From: a virus
IMG/VR virus record: IMGVR_UViG_3300017580_000001
Location: 1 to 34,859 of that record
DNA: 34,859 nt
Reading direction: 5' to 3' (one strand)
Shown: piece by piece, positions 1 to 33,601 of the stretch
Numbering within the stretch: position 1 is the stretch's first letter
Layout of the letters: each line of letters opens with the position of its first letter
Made by a program: the position numbers and the translations under genes
The notes under the pieces: generated by a model
The model's database searches: none
What the model was told of the DNA's origin: nothing
What the model saw: the letters and a program-made list of their open reading frames with translations, nothing else

Positions 1-216
1 AAGTTTGATAACTCCAATGAAGACGGCGAATTTCCAACTACAGAGTGTAGTTGCGGTTCTGAAGTTGTACTACAAAGTACAATGGAAAACAGGTGTGTTA
101 ATTGTGGTGCTAAATACAACGGATCTGGTCAAATGTTAAGGGATGATTGGCATAGGGAGTCCAGGCGTAGGGGAAACCTACGATCTGATCCTGGTGTCGG
201 TCGTCCTGGTTTCTAG
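1..216 (+). CDS. Zinc-ribbon protein, 5'-truncated by window edge
   Basis: Frame 1 is open from the first base to TAG at 214-216, giving 71 residues with no start in the window. It has a CxC pair (residues 16 and 18) and a CxxC pair (residues 36 and 39), the spacing of a small zinc ribbon. The last third is rich in Arg and Gly (RESRRRGNLRSDPGVGRPGF), which suggests nucleic-acid binding. It precedes a plus-strand series of small genes. The function is unknown; a small phage zinc-ribbon regulator or nucleic-acid-binding protein is an inference. An internal ATG at 82 would lose the first Cys pair and is unlikely to be the true start. Confidence 0.6.
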   Translation, partial: KFDNSNEDGEFPTTECSCGSEVVLQSTMENRCVNCGAKYNGSGQMLRDDWHRESRRRGNLRSDPGVGRPGF

Positions 217-5479: not shown

Positions 5480-6028
5480 ATGAACAATGCCGAAAAGATA
5501 AGAAAGTCTCACTCTAGGTTTAAGGTACGCAAAAGAACATATAAATATACTGATGATGTAAAGTGGGTTTTGTCATACCCTGAACGCCTAACTATAGGTG
5601 ACACTTGGACTACTATGCACCATGAAAGAAAGGTGCAAAGTAGCAAAGACCCATCTGATATATCTGATGAGATACTTCGGCTAAATAAGGTTGCAATTAA
5701 GACCTACCAGAAAAACAAGCAACAAGCCGCCGAAAGAAAAGCTAAGTTAGAGAAGGATATCCAAAGACGAAAAGATAAACTAGGTAAACTTTACAACTTC
5801 ATAGATAAGAAGTTTGAATACCTTTTTGACGTGTACCATGACCTAAAACCAAAAGATACGCACGTTACCAGACGTGGAAGAGACTTTTGTTATAGGTCTA
5901 AACCTAAGTCTTTTGCCTCATTTGTACTGTCACACTTACGCAAGAAAGACAGGCAAGAAAAGCTACAAACTATATATACAAAAGCTGAAAATTTGGGGCT
6001 GTCTCAGGGCGATTTAGCGGCGCTCTAA
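5480..6028 (+). CDS. Hypothetical basic coiled-coil protein
   Basis: A 182-residue product, ATG at 5480 after AGTAAACTT. It is strongly basic, unlike most neighbours. Residues 70-110 form a charged helix (KNKQQAAERKAKLEKDIQRR) that may be a coiled coil. Unrecognised. It is the last gene of the left plus-strand unit. Its final nine codons overlap the GC-rich structured element at 6001-6109, so the C-terminal residues (LGLSQGDLAAL) are encoded by one strand of that element. Confidence 0.6.
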   Translation: MNNAEKIRKSHSRFKVRKRTYKYTDDVKWVLSYPERLTIGDTWTTMHHERKVQSSKDPSDISDEILRLNKVAIKTYQKNKQQAAERKAKLEKDIQRRKDKLGKLYNFIDKKFEYLFDVYHDLKPKDTHVTRRGRDFCYRSKPKSFASFVLSHLRKKDRQEKLQTIYTKAENLGLSQGDLAAL

Positions 6029-6109
6029 GCGGCTCGAAGTCCGATCAATACCAGACCATAGCCCCACCCACCGAAGCCTCTTGAGCGGCGAATATAGCCG
6101 CCCTCAGAC
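6001..6109 (-). other. GC-rich structured element, copy 1
   Basis: GC is 65 of 109 by hand count, against an AT-rich background. On the minus strand the ends GTCTGAGGGCG and CGCCCTGAGAC pair at 10 of 11 positions. Inside is a hairpin GCGGC/GCCGC with a 7-nt loop (6085-6101) that partly competes with the closing stem. It shares AAGAGGCTT (6074-6082) and TAGAGCGCC (6019-6027), in the same order and strand and at nearly the same spacing, with copy 2 at 19078-19178. The 3' part also aligns (CTAAATCGCCC here, CTATAGCCCC there). The minus strand is assumed from copy 2's operon; the reverse is possible. No known RNA family recognised. Confidence 0.6.
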
Positions 6110-6120
6110 CTGTGGGCTTC

Positions 6121-6176
6121 AAATTGCCCCACGCTTCCACGAAGTAAAAGCTAATCGGAGGCGTGGGGCAATTTTT
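6121..6176 (+). terminator. Terminator between converging units
   Basis: AAATTGCCCCACGC (6121-6134) pairs perfectly with GCGTGGGGCAATTT (6161-6174), 14 bp, with T through 6176. It can stop the plus-strand unit. Read on the minus strand it ends in TTT only, so it may also serve the tail-fibre transcript, but less strongly. No gene lies in 6029-6224. Confidence 0.9.
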
Positions 6177-6224
6177 ATGTATAAACCAGTCTACCATCCT
6201 GAACCTATAAAAGTGTCCCAAATC

Positions 6225-7070
6225 TTACACAGACGACAACCCGAAACGCCGATTTACAAGTTCCAAAAAGCTATCGCGTTCATCATCAGTTGGCAAGTTT
6301 TCCCACAATGCTGCACCTAAAATGTGAGAATCATCTGCGCTGTCTGGAGGGCTTGCGTTTTCGTTTGCCCCAAGTATCATACGATCTGCGGTAATATCTG
6401 GTAAAAATTTTGTTCCTTTTTGGTCGCCATTCACATATATGGCACTTGTACCATCAACAAACTCTGCATACACCGAATAAAGCTGATTTTTTGATGTTAC
6501 TCCACTGGAAATTGAATTACTAATGCTGTCATTTCTCATTGTGAGTTCCCCATTCCCATCAGATGATAGAAGAATCTGACAATGGAACTGTCCTGCCATT
6601 GTCAGACACTCATGAAAGTTATCAATCGTTGAAGGTGGTTTAACCAACACCCACGCAGCGAAAGGCGTAGATGTGGAAAATATACCACTCGAAATTGCCA
6701 TAAAACGATTATTTACAAATTTTAGTGCTGCATCTGTACCAACACGTATAGGATCGGTCCCGTCATGCAAAATGGGGTTACTACCTGCACCATCATCTGC
6801 ATCAACACCGAACCCTGTAAAGTCTAAAAATTCAGCCGTTGTTTTCGAGTTGCCCGCAAAATCATCTAGTGTACCATCTACTAAGTCAGGGCCAGTTAAT
6901 TTTTTTGTAGATGTTCCGTTATCTGCCTCAACTACATTTTCACCGTTTGTTAGGTTAAACGCAAACAGTGGTTTTACTGTTGAGATTGATGCAAAAATTC
7001 CACTTATCACTTTTGCGTTGCCAAGCGTAGGTCCGGTAGCGGGAGTGTTACTTTGAATTACGAAGCTCAT
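6225..7070 (-). CDS. Lectin-like (LamG/jelly-roll) tail protein
   Basis: A 281-residue product. The frame is open to 7175 but would then overlap the fibre gene by 79 nt. The ATG at 7070 (MSFVIQSNTPATGP), after an A-rich leader, is the likely start. The C-terminal 150 residues look like a concanavalin/LamG sandwich: TPFAAWVLVKPPS, an internal strand pair, YAEFVDGTSAIYVNGDQKG, and MILGANEN. The end (DERDSFLELVNRRFG) is typical of phage tail lectin-like proteins. It probably binds host surface glycan. It is the last gene of the late unit, just after the GH43-like fibre. Confidence 0.65.
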   Translation of the reverse strand: MSFVIQSNTPATGPTLGNAKVISGIFASISTVKPLFAFNLTNGENVVEADNGTSTKKLTGPDLVDGTLDDFAGNSKTTAEFLDFTGFGVDADDGAGSNPILHDGTDPIRVGTDAALKFVNNRFMAISSGIFSTSTPFAAWVLVKPPSTIDNFHECLTMAGQFHCQILLSSDGNGELTMRNDSISNSISSGVTSKNQLYSVYAEFVDGTSAIYVNGDQKGTKFLPDITADRMILGANENASPPDSADDSHILGAALWENLPTDDERDSFLELVNRRFGLSSV

Positions 7071-17527: not shown

Positions 17528-17917
17528 TTACTGATTTACTTTTTCATTCCACTCATCATATGCAACCTCAACACCATTTTCTATTTCTTCTGCATAGGCA
17601 GGACCTATGCCATTTATATCCTCAAAGTCTTCGTATGAAAGCAAAGCTGCAAAGTTATACACATTATCAGATGCAAGTATAGAGTATACTTCTTCACTTG
17701 GGAAGTCTTCAGGCAACTCCGTACTTACAAAGTCTTCGTGATACTCTCCTCTGTTCGTTTCTACAAGGTTTCTGTTACCCTCTACAAATTCAGCGTAATT
17801 CTTTTCTACCAACTCTTCTGCATAATCCCTACTTACTTGTTTTTCTGATCCTTCAGTTGCAAGACCACCCAACTCTTTCTGGTTTCTAAGTGTAGTCTTG
17901 AGCTTAACTGTTGGCAT
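17528..17917 (-). CDS. Helix-hairpin-helix protein in the connector region
   Basis: A 129-residue acidic product. Near the C-terminus, LSYEDFEDINGIGPAYAEEI has the hGIGPxxAxxI core of a helix-hairpin-helix DNA-binding motif. It may be a head-completion or DNA-gatekeeping factor contacting packaged DNA at the portal vertex. Its ATG lies 14 nt inside the end of the glycosyltransferase gene, so the two are translationally linked. Confidence 0.6.
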   Translation of the reverse strand: MPTVKLKTTLRNQKELGGLATEGSEKQVSRDYAEELVEKNYAEFVEGNRNLVETNRGEYHEDFVSTELPEDFPSEEVYSILASDNVYNFAALLSYEDFEDINGIGPAYAEEIENGVEVAYDEWNEKVNQ

Positions 17918-19040
17918 AACTTGTGTAGTTGTTTGGCGTGGAAAAGTCTACGTCTTTAGGTTTCAGGTATTCTATTTCTTTATATGGGTAGCTGTTCCAT
18001 TGAACCAAGTCTATATCTGTAGTACCAAGTTTTTGATGCTGTATAGGCCAAAAGTCATTTCTGAACCTATTTTTATTGTATGATTCTGTTTTGCTGTTTT
18101 CACCCCACCTAATATGATAGCAAGTTGTGTCTGGTGTTATTGCCACACCTAAAGGTATATCTTTATCTACGCTTTGTATAGGAAACGGTCTTGCCGTATC
18201 CATAGACTTCCTAGTATATGCAAGACCTTTCTTTTCTAAGTCCTTTGCGTATTCCAATTCTACTCTTACCCATTCATTACTACTTACCATTCCACCCACA
18301 TGTGATAGCTTGTCTCTATTCCTAAAAGTAGATAGAGTATAAATCTCAACTCTTCCGTTACTGTCTACTTTTAGGCTATCATCCCCGTCTTGCCTATTTC
18401 TATATCTTTCAAGCCATATATCATCTTTTTCTTGCCCTTTACCTACAAGTGACCTTGTTGCTGCTAATCTAGCAAAAAACTCACTATGTTCTTGTAGCTT
18501 CAATTCCTCATCCCAATATATACTTTCTACTGTTCTTCTGTCTGCAATAAACCAGTTAGGACAAAACATTACATTATGATACCTAACTTTACCTATACTA
18601 GTATCTACTGACTTTATATCTTCAGGTGGCCTATGATATTCAATGGGGCCTTCTACCCACATATCACCTGTAAACCAAACGTCTCTTCTTCCGTTAGACC
18701 TTACCCACTCTCCACCTACTATTCCAACATCATCTAACTTATGAAGCAACTCCCAAAATACTTCTAGGTCTGTATCTTCAGTTACAAGGTAATCATCATC
18801 CCACAAAAATATGTAAGGTTCGTCTGACTTTTGGACTAGTAGGTTTCTTTTTGCTGAAAGTCCAATGTCGTATGCAGGTGCAATTACGTTTTTGGCATGT
18901 TCGTATTTGTGTGGCTTTTTGCTATCATCACACACATAAATACTATGACTTGGATAGTGTTTATGTATGGAGTTAATTAGACGCTGGCATACGTCTGGAC
19001 GTTCATGTGTAGGTATAATGTGGCATAATTCTTCTCTCAT
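17904..19040 (-). CDS. GT2-type glycosyltransferase (GT-A fold)
   Basis: A 378-residue product. It begins ELCHIIPTHERPD, the usual nucleotide-sugar strand of GT-A enzymes. LSAKRNLLV (61-69) and YIFLWDDDYLV (76-86) supply the metal-binding DxD. WFIADRRTVESIYWDEELKL with QEHSEFFARL (around 163-192) resembles the acceptor/base region of beta-1,4-GalNAc transferases, and the EH acidic motif is intact. No membrane segment is seen, so it should act in the cytoplasm on a nucleotide-sugar donor, probably UDP-linked. It lies in the head-gene cluster downstream of the sulfotransferase. Acceptor unknown. Confidence 0.8.
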   Translation of the reverse strand: MREELCHIIPTHERPDVCQRLINSIHKHYPSHSIYVCDDSKKPHKYEHAKNVIAPAYDIGLSAKRNLLVQKSDEPYIFLWDDDYLVTEDTDLEVFWELLHKLDDVGIVGGEWVRSNGRRDVWFTGDMWVEGPIEYHRPPEDIKSVDTSIGKVRYHNVMFCPNWFIADRRTVESIYWDEELKLQEHSEFFARLAATRSLVGKGQEKDDIWLERYRNRQDGDDSLKVDSNGRVEIYTLSTFRNRDKLSHVGGMVSSNEWVRVELEYAKDLEKKGLAYTRKSMDTARPFPIQSVDKDIPLGVAITPDTTCYHIRWGENSKTESYNKNRFRNDFWPIQHQKLGTTDIDLVQWNSYPYKEIEYLKPKDVDFSTPNNYTSYANS

Positions 19041-19077
19041 CCGTGCCGTGGTCTAATCTTGAAGGTTTTGCGGCCTA

Positions 19078-19178
19078 TGTGGGGCTATAGTCGGGCGCTC
19101 TAGGTCTTTAGCGCATCCCCTGGTATGGTAGGATTCCCGCACCTGAAAGCCTCTTAGGGCGGCCATCTAAGCCTCACA
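19078..19178 (-). other. GC-rich structured element, copy 2
   Basis: GC is 58 of 101 by hand count. On the minus strand TGTGAGGC and GCCCCACA at the ends pair at 7 of 8 positions. Just inside is GGC/GCC with a 7-nt loop (19161-19173). A further stem GCGCT/AGCGC lies near 19096-19115. It shares AAGAGGCTT (19147-19155) and TAGAGCGCC (19094-19102) with copy 1 at 6001-6109. All frames contain stops, so it is not coding. It fills most of the 157-nt gap between sulfotransferase and glycosyltransferase genes and should be transcribed with them. Confidence 0.6.
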
Positions 19179-19197
19179 AAAGCTACTACTTATCATG

Positions 19198-19821
19198 CTA
19201 TCTCGAACCAGGATATCTAGGTGATTTTACCTTAACTCCTACCTCTACTTTTGGATCTTCGTATCCTACAAACTCAAGTATATTTCTTACACCTTTCTCT
19301 TTATTTAAGTCTTCTGTTCTAAACAAACTTACTCTTTTATCACTTCTGTACTGATCTATAATGTTGTAAACTCTATGCCAAAAACTTCTTATGCCTTCTC
19401 TTTTGTTTTCAGTATCAAATGTTGGATAACATTTATCCCATTGGTCTGGTTTAGTATCCCTATATCCATGAAATGACCAATGATCTGAATTAGGTTTCCA
19501 TTTGTCGTATGAGTCTACAACTTCATCTACATCTCTTTTTAGGGCTACAACTCTTACCTTTCTATTATCGTTGTTAGCCCAATGCAAAAACGTACCTATG
19601 TGTGATGTCCAAACAAAATGTATATCTGCAACTACATCCCTTTCATTTCTTTCAGTATCTAACCACAAACGATAGGGCCACAAGTTAGGTGGGCAATCCC
19701 ACCTAACTTGTGGCCCAAATCGTTCGTGAGTCGAAAATGTACTCTTCTGGACTGACAAAAGCCTTGTTAGACTTTTAGTACCACACCTTCCCGTTCCTAC
19801 TCCTATAACGAGCGTATTCAT
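19198..19821 (-). CDS. PAPS-dependent sulfotransferase
   Basis: A 207-residue product. The N-terminal IGVGTGRCGTKSLTRLL (residues 6-22) is the 5'-phosphosulfate-binding loop. VVALKRDVDEVVDSYDKW (91-108) is the 3'-phosphate-binding segment, with Arg96 and Ser104 in the expected places. This fold moves sulfate from PAPS to a hydroxyl, often on a sugar. It is soluble and somewhat short for the family. It directly follows the major capsid gene and precedes the glycosyltransferase. A perfect 19-bp inverted repeat lies within codons 36-49. Confidence 0.8.
   Translation of the reverse strand: MNTLVIGVGTGRCGTKSLTRLLSVQKSTFSTHERFGPQVRWDCPPNLWPYRLWLDTERNERDVVADIHFVWTSHIGTFLHWANNDNRKVRVVALKRDVDEVVDSYDKWKPNSDHWSFHGYRDTKPDQWDKCYPTFDTENKREGIRSFWHRVYNIIDQYRSDKRVSLFRTEDLNKEKGVRNILEFVGYEDPKVEVGVKVKSPRYPGSR
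19675..19716. repeat. Perfect 19-bp inverted repeat inside the sulfotransferase CDS
   Basis: GGGCCACAAGTTAGGTGGG (19675-19693) is the exact reverse complement of 19698-19716, with a 4-nt loop (CAAT). Flanking ACGAT and ATCGT add five more pairs after a one- or two-base bulge. It encodes residues 36-49 (GPQVRWDCPPNLWP). No T-run follows on either strand. Confidence 0.95.
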
Positions 19822-27607: not shown

Positions 27608-27610
27608 CGT

Positions 27611-27683
27611 GCCCACAAGAGGACTTGAACCTCTAACCTACAGATTAGAAGTCTGTTGCTCTTTCCATTTGAGCTATGTGGGC
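27611..27683 (-). tRNA. tRNA-Arg (TCT anticodon)
   Basis: Full cloverleaf on the minus strand: acceptor GCCCACA/TGTGGGC, D-stem GCTC/GAGC, anticodon stem ACAGA/TCTGT with loop CTTCTAA (anticodon TCT), T-stem AGAGG/CCTCT with TTCAAGT. The discriminator is A, and CCA is not encoded. It reads AGA/AGG, common codons in this phage. Its first 10 nt overlap the end of the upstream gene. Confidence 0.95.
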
Positions 27684-28246: not shown

Positions 28247-28255
28247 GCAGTTAGT

Positions 28256-28328
28256 GGGCCATGTAGGACTTGAACCTACAACCTGACGATTATGAGTCGT
28301 CTGCTCTAACCGATTGAGCTAATGGCCC
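28256..28328 (-). tRNA. tRNA with CAT anticodon, probably tRNA-Ile2 (reads AUA)
   Basis: Cloverleaf on the minus strand: acceptor GGGCCAT/ATGGCCC, D-stem GCTC/GAGC with loop AATCGGTTA, anticodon stem GACGA/TCGTC with loop CTCATAA, T-stem GTAGG/CCTAC with TTCAAGT. The discriminator is A, and CCA is not encoded. The GGGCC acceptor and the CGA-CTCATAA-TCG anticodon arm resemble the lysidine-modified tRNA-Ile2 more than elongator tRNA-Met, and the phage uses many ATA codons. Confidence 0.9.
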
Positions 28329-32863: not shown

Positions 32864-33601
32864 CTAGTCTGTTAGGTTTCCTTGTATTCTTATACCTACT
32901 GTTGGGGATATTACTTGCCTATCTACATCAAAAGTAGCACCTAGGTCTACTTTCAGGTTATTTCTAAATGTAGCGTATGTACCTATCTCTATTCTGTTTG
33001 TTGTTCTATAGTTGTATGTACCATCCAAATAAGGACCAAAATCGAAATAATCAATGTTATGTGCATACTCCAATGTTGCTGTTCTAGCATTGGTCGGATT
33101 TATAACATCTATTAGGGTTCTGTTGTTACCAACTTGTACTGTAGGGTTTCCGTTCTTTAGTGGTAAAAGAAGAAACCCCTTTCTCAAGTTGGGAAAAGTT
33201 GCACTTACATTTAACTCTGGTTCATCAAAGTCTAGTATGCCCCTTGCCGTATCTAAAAACCTATAAACCGTATCCTTTTCTGTAATATACTTGGGTACTT
33301 TTACACGTACCGTCTCAACTCTAGTTTTAGGTGGTTTTTCCCGTAAATATGCCTCATCCGGCGTAGTCTCTCTAAGAAGCTGTGAGAGGCTCTTAGGGGC
33401 TTCCTTTGTAGGCAAGGGTCTACTACTGCCCCCATCCCCATTCGTCCATTGAGCGGACCACCTACCACCTAAGAAGACAGCTAAACCTATGAGCAACGCC
33501 GCAACGGAGAGAACGGCCCGTTTGGGGTACGATAATATCGTCTCATATAAGGATACAAAAGCAGATACAATTCTTCCGAATAATTCTCCAATTCCGAACA
33601 T
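32864..33601 (-). CDS. Membrane-anchored beta-rich periplasmic protein, candidate spanin-like
   Basis: A 245-residue product. One N-terminal membrane segment (residues 28-47, RAVLSVAALLIGLAVFLGGR) is followed by a Pro/Thr-rich linker and a beta-rich domain (TATLEYAHNIDYFDFGPYLD; RIEIGTYATFRNNLKVDLGA) with the alternating pattern of membrane or outer-envelope strands. Its start overlaps the lysin gene by 115 nt. Spanning the periplasm from an inner-membrane anchor would fit disruption of the outer membrane, but no lipobox or classic Rz coiled coil is present. Confidence 0.55.
   Translation of the reverse strand: MFGIGELFGRIVSAFVSLYETILSYPKRAVLSVAALLIGLAVFLGGRWSAQWTNGDGGSSRPLPTKEAPKSLSQLLRETTPDEAYLREKPPKTRVETVRVKVPKYITEKDTVYRFLDTARGILDFDEPELNVSATFPNLRKGFLLLPLKNGNPTVQVGNNRTLIDVINPTNARTATLEYAHNIDYFDFGPYLDGTYNYRTTNRIEIGTYATFRNNLKVDLGATFDVDRQVISPTVGIRIQGNLTD

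Follow-up and report, generated by a model that had tools for sequence, protein, structure and literature searches.

Two GC-rich stretches and their surroundings

The window, as we call the whole stretch of DNA analyzed, comprises the 34,859 bases of an IMG/VR virus record and has a GC content of 38.7%; its leftward late genes include those for terminase, portal protein and an HK97-type capsid protein. By capsid and portal proteins together, the closest annotated phages are those of Salinibacter ruber, at about 34-36% amino-acid identity, and the host of the window phage may be a Salinibacter-like bacterium. The portal protein, used as a query against the genome collection, returned no relative. 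Two virus records used for comparison are L011, which is syntenic with the window and has a capsid protein 56% identical to the window's, and L148 (IMGVR_UViG_3300020058_000008), with a capsid protein 98% identical and a contig that ends inside the gene before copy 2.

Also found in the window were genes for tRNA-Arg(TCT) (27609-27683, minus strand) and tRNA-Met(CAT) (28254-28328, minus strand), which lie upstream of the large terminase gene in a stretch far longer than its counterpart in L011. A strong hairpin at 140-208 (plus strand) overlaps the 3' end of an open frame that the window's left edge truncates.

The subject of this analysis is a pair of GC-rich imperfect palindromes, copy 1 and copy 2 (Table 1), which hold the top two 80-nt GC values in the window genome. 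An earlier note on this DNA described them as GC-rich, non-coding, closed by end pairing and sharing two 9-mers, and these observations were borne out. GC content is 59.6% in copy 1 and 57.4% in copy 2, end pairing is present in both, copy 1 covers only the last 28 nt of the reading frame that it overlaps, and copy 2 is intergenic. The 9-mers AAGAGGCTT and TAGAGCGCC, read on the minus strand, occur in both copies on the same strand and in the same order, their starts 55 and 53 nt apart. The copies have no common or recognizable reading frame, and their self-palindrome scores are only moderately high for such GC, being reached by 284/3000 windows for copy 1 and 47/3000 for copy 2. An intragenic GC-rich patch at 33361-33451 carries short motifs like the arms of the copies, and matches of this sort occur in the window at chance level.

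Convergent genes flank copy 1, with the rightward gene that it overlaps on one side and the late-gene end at 6225 on the other. A search for relatives of this rightward gene found none, and the idea that it ends as a broken helix-turn-helix received no support from Pfam. The stem-loop beyond copy 1, with the T run that follows it, looks terminator-like by eye and may terminate the rightward genes; a terminator pattern scan, which admits loops of 3-8 nt only, did not report it.

Table 1. Positions in the window of the two copies and of the features around them
Feature	Position	Strand	Remarks
Gene overlapping copy 1 by its last 28 nt	5480..6028	+	
Copy 1, 109-nt GC-rich imperfect palindrome	6001..6109	-	Ends GTCTGAGGGCG/CGCCCTGAGAC; this orientation matches copy 2 (+)
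Stem-loop GCCCCACGC/GCGTGGGGC, then AATTTTT	6126..6180	+	Outside the element; by eye
Family 2 glycosyltransferase gene, on the downstream side of copy 2	17904..19040	-	
Space separating two late genes and containing copy 2	19041..19197		157 nt
Copy 2, 101-nt GC-rich imperfect palindrome	19078..19178	+	Ends TGTGGGGC/GCCTCACA; this orientation matches copy 1 (-)
Candidate end of a degenerate target repeat	19189..19197	-	CATGATAAG; by eye, weak
Sulfotransferase-like gene, upstream of copy 2	19198..19821	-	P-loop-type GVGTGRCG motif; putative name

Likeness, folding and the search for further copies

The copies are about 60% alike and are probably homologous and mutually inverted. The earlier note had related them on the same strand; a relationship is indeed probable, but the best local alignment pairs copy 1 (minus) with copy 2 (plus) at a score of 134, against 97 for the same-strand comparison. 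When copy 2 was shuffled with its fold preserved, 134 was reached by 0/3000 shuffles and 97, in the matching orientation, by 15/3000, and a second, stricter scoring scheme separated less, with 17/3000 shuffles reaching the observed best score. Among GC-matched natural windows from other loci, 0/3684 reached 134, the best of them scoring 128 with copy 1 and 116 with copy 2. Because this is a single comparison of two regions chosen for their resemblance, homology is likely and carries some uncertainty. An alignment of all four arms suggests that the 9-mers found on the same strand may be explained by the similarity of each palindrome's two arms to one another.

The better-folding strands, copy 1 minus (-46.7 kcal/mol) and copy 2 plus (-44.0 kcal/mol), are the same strands that give the best alignment. 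Folding beats shuffled sequence only moderately in both copies, with z-scores of -2.2 (copy 1, minus), -2.7 (copy 1, plus), -3.0 (copy 2, plus) and -1.5 (copy 2, minus). Stable folds of this kind would also suit hairpins of independent origin that tune late or early mRNAs by attenuation, RNase III cleavage or 3' protection, their likeness being convergent or a matter of chance. The settings are compatible with such roles, copy 1 lying in a convergent intergenic region by the terminator-like stem-loop and copy 2 between co-oriented late genes, and chance scores in GC-rich natural DNA do climb to 128. Nevertheless, the observed 134 is above both nulls, shuffles and natural windows alike, and copy 2 folds better on the strand opposite to that of the neighboring late genes; we regard independent origin as somewhat unlikely.

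The earlier note had also read changed end pairings as covariation, and had proposed a conserved structured RNA. The pairings are present in both copies, but with two sequences only the covariation claim was overstated. That this phage group has a functional, structured non-coding RNA, present here twice, would accord with the folding of both copies and with the two-row alignment, in which 10/22 consensus pairs have both partners changed from one copy to the other. The RNAalifold consensus of that alignment is weak, however, at -17.45 kcal/mol against the far lower energies of the single sequences, the fold z-scores are modest, and the opposite orientation of the copies leaves copy 2 antisense to its surrounding genes. 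Neither a further homologue in any of the relatives' records searched nor an Rfam family came to light, and we consider a structured RNA improbable.

Searches of viral, phage, plasmid and bacterial collections, and of the relatives' records in full, yielded no copies beyond these two. Scanning viral contigs with the two shared 9-mers gave nine matches, none element-like once read and folded, and a pattern drawn from the opposite-strand alignment gave 7 viral and 22 genome matches, none of them backed by the covariance model (best 13.4 bits). This model, R1, was built from the two sequences, and the search for homologues with it, as the earlier note had proposed, yielded none in 245 genomes or in eleven related virus records. 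All 245 genomes belong to one bacterial class, that of G344, which encodes a related portal protein; to take this class as the host group is a guess. Their one 21-bit match, single in its genome and overlapping the 5' end of a putative ruvC gene, was rejected as chance. With blastn, each copy against phages, plasmids and the 245 genomes returned nothing convincing (one 29-nt match, E 0.006). Diverged copies could escape these searches, since the pattern scans demand exact matches and the model has two sequences behind it.

The earlier note recognized no known family in the copies, and Rfam agrees: neither copy has a covariance-model match to ribozymes, tRNA or other Rfam families, and a loose threshold yields nothing credible. 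A tRNA-like reading of TAGAGCGCC was unsupported by ARAGORN and Rfam. In L011, a structured GC-rich stretch lies at a divergent gene boundary (1105-1290); it resembles the copies by eye and was rejected as a further copy, scoring no better than shuffles.

The copy 2 junction in related phages

Copy 2 separates a glycosyltransferase gene from a gene that we call sulfotransferase-like, for which Pfam and PHROG give no match. In relatives these two genes overlap, by 8 nt in L011, 4 nt in L095/L096 and 7 nt in L146/L147, or almost abut, as in L142 with its GTG start, while L097 and L144 each have a short reading frame in the gap. From the capsid gene onward to the tape-measure gene, the remaining gaps are within 13 nt of those in L011. 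Given a junction that overlaps or nearly abuts in relatives and spans 157 nt in the window, copy 2 looks like an insertion, and the comparison reads most simply as a gain of about 150 nt by the lineage of the window. Flanking the gap is a degenerate repeat, GCATGATAAG versus GGATGAGAGAAG, which was seen by eye only and is too degenerate to count as a target-site duplication.

The insert at this junction in L097 is a short zinc-ribbon-like frame with two CPxC-type motifs, and L144 holds another short frame. Because different short frames occur there, the junction evidently tolerates ordinary small insertions, which lends something to the idea that the copies are decayed GC-rich foreign DNA, such as small genes or intergenic segments from relatives of 55-67% GC or from the host, with no mobile family involved. 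The GC content of the copies agrees with that of the GC-rich relatives. Copy 2 has no sequence likeness to the L097 insert, however, and was rejected as its coding relic; the lack of an open frame common to the copies also speaks against decayed genes, and two separate decays would not be expected to leave similar sequences. We consider this origin unlikely.

Separate from the copies, and a stronger structure than either, is a 29-bp hairpin inside the sulfotransferase-like gene (19663-19728, minus strand; codons 32-53), in which 29/29 pairs form at -54.2 kcal/mol. Among 1000 synonymous recodings of the same peptide, 0/1000 were as stable (z = -7.4). L148 retains 28/29 of the pairs (z -6.0), and hairpins of different sequence occupy the same codons in L011 (z -3.7), L146/L147 (z -3.4) and, more weakly, L095 (z -2.1), with compensating changes in L148, L011 and L146/L147; L142, L144, L097, L099 and L153 have no outstanding hairpin at these codons. 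In a six-sequence alignment that includes two relatives without the hairpin, 8/29 pairs are changed on both sides. The covariation score exceeded 500/500 shuffles and all slid controls, with few sequences and with a structure taken from the window's own sequence, which favors it. This coding hairpin merits separate study.

Nature of the elements

Bacterial chromosomes are well known to harbor small non-autonomous palindromic elements, and those of the MITE and REP kind are usually mobilized in trans by a transposase encoded elsewhere. Another class of palindromic site, integron attC, carries the core-site motifs GTTRRRY/RYYYAAC at the palindrome ends; reading the ends of copies 1 and 2 revealed no such motifs.

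Tentatively, we read the two stretches as old, diverged copies, in opposite orientation, of a GC-rich palindromic insertion element of about 100 nt and of the MITE/REP kind, without a protein of its own. The earlier note had named a small mobile element among its suggestions, and that suggestion gains from two results: copy 2 fills a junction that is touching, near-touching or occupied by a short frame in relatives, and the copies are inverted with respect to each other. Membership of a known class was not established. In form, both copies agree with the description of a MITE, as non-coding imperfect palindromes (or sequences with terminal inverted repeats) below 600 nt. The empty site expected of such an element is seen at copy 2, where the flanking genes overlap in three lineages, nearly abut in L142 and are parted by short frames in two others; for copy 1 none was found, the gene that it overlaps having yielded no relatives. 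Several things count against an insertion element: palindromicity is only moderate for the GC content, target duplication is not clear, the copy 2 junction takes ordinary small inserts in L097 and L144, and there are two copies, about 60% alike, in one genome, where a MITE would be expected in several copies.

Like bacterial MITEs, including the imperfect palindromes of ERIC type, the copies are about 100 nt long, non-coding and imperfectly palindromic, lie in intergenic or gene-end positions in either orientation, and encode no protein of their own (PMC10969869). They differ from these MITEs in being just two, in residing in a phage with no parent transposon found, and in having no proven terminal inverted repeats or direct repeats. 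With REP/REPIN sequences they share a palindromic form downstream of genes and paired inverted arms, but their arms are about 40 nt long, their copy number is low, and no RAYT gene was identified (PMC3733652, PMC3116915). Of the REP tag GTAG/CGTC at the hairpin foot, inspection by eye found GTAGTAG close to a single end of copy 2 and nothing at the ends of copy 1. Rickettsia palindromic elements, compared here by description, are likewise palindromic inserts (about 100-150 nt) that can reach into a gene end, as copy 1 does, whereas the window has two copies only and no conserved in-frame peptide was seen (PMC10969869). The titles and abstracts returned by literature searches offered no clear report of a small non-autonomous palindromic element in a phage genome.

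If the copies are insertion elements, copy 2 would have inserted at the stop/start junction between two late genes; copy 1 sits where the rightward gene block ends, overlapping the last codons. The transposase that moved them would presumably be host-encoded; we noticed no gene for one in the window, where family-library searches covered a minority of the proteins. Once transcribed, the elements would form long hairpins and might act as passive RNA barriers. The comparisons show how the copies relate in sequence, how they are oriented and that a gap at the copy 2 site is missing from most relatives; mobility, a helper enzyme, a GC-rich foreign origin and any effect on expression are inferred. 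A broader proposal, that they represent a family of mobile, GC-rich palindromes carried by phages, spread in AT-rich phages of Salinibacter-like hosts and inserting at gene stop/start junctions, strikes us as hardly probable.

With two copies in one genome, the case is of modest interest. If the elements are mobile, compact late operons too would take such inserts.
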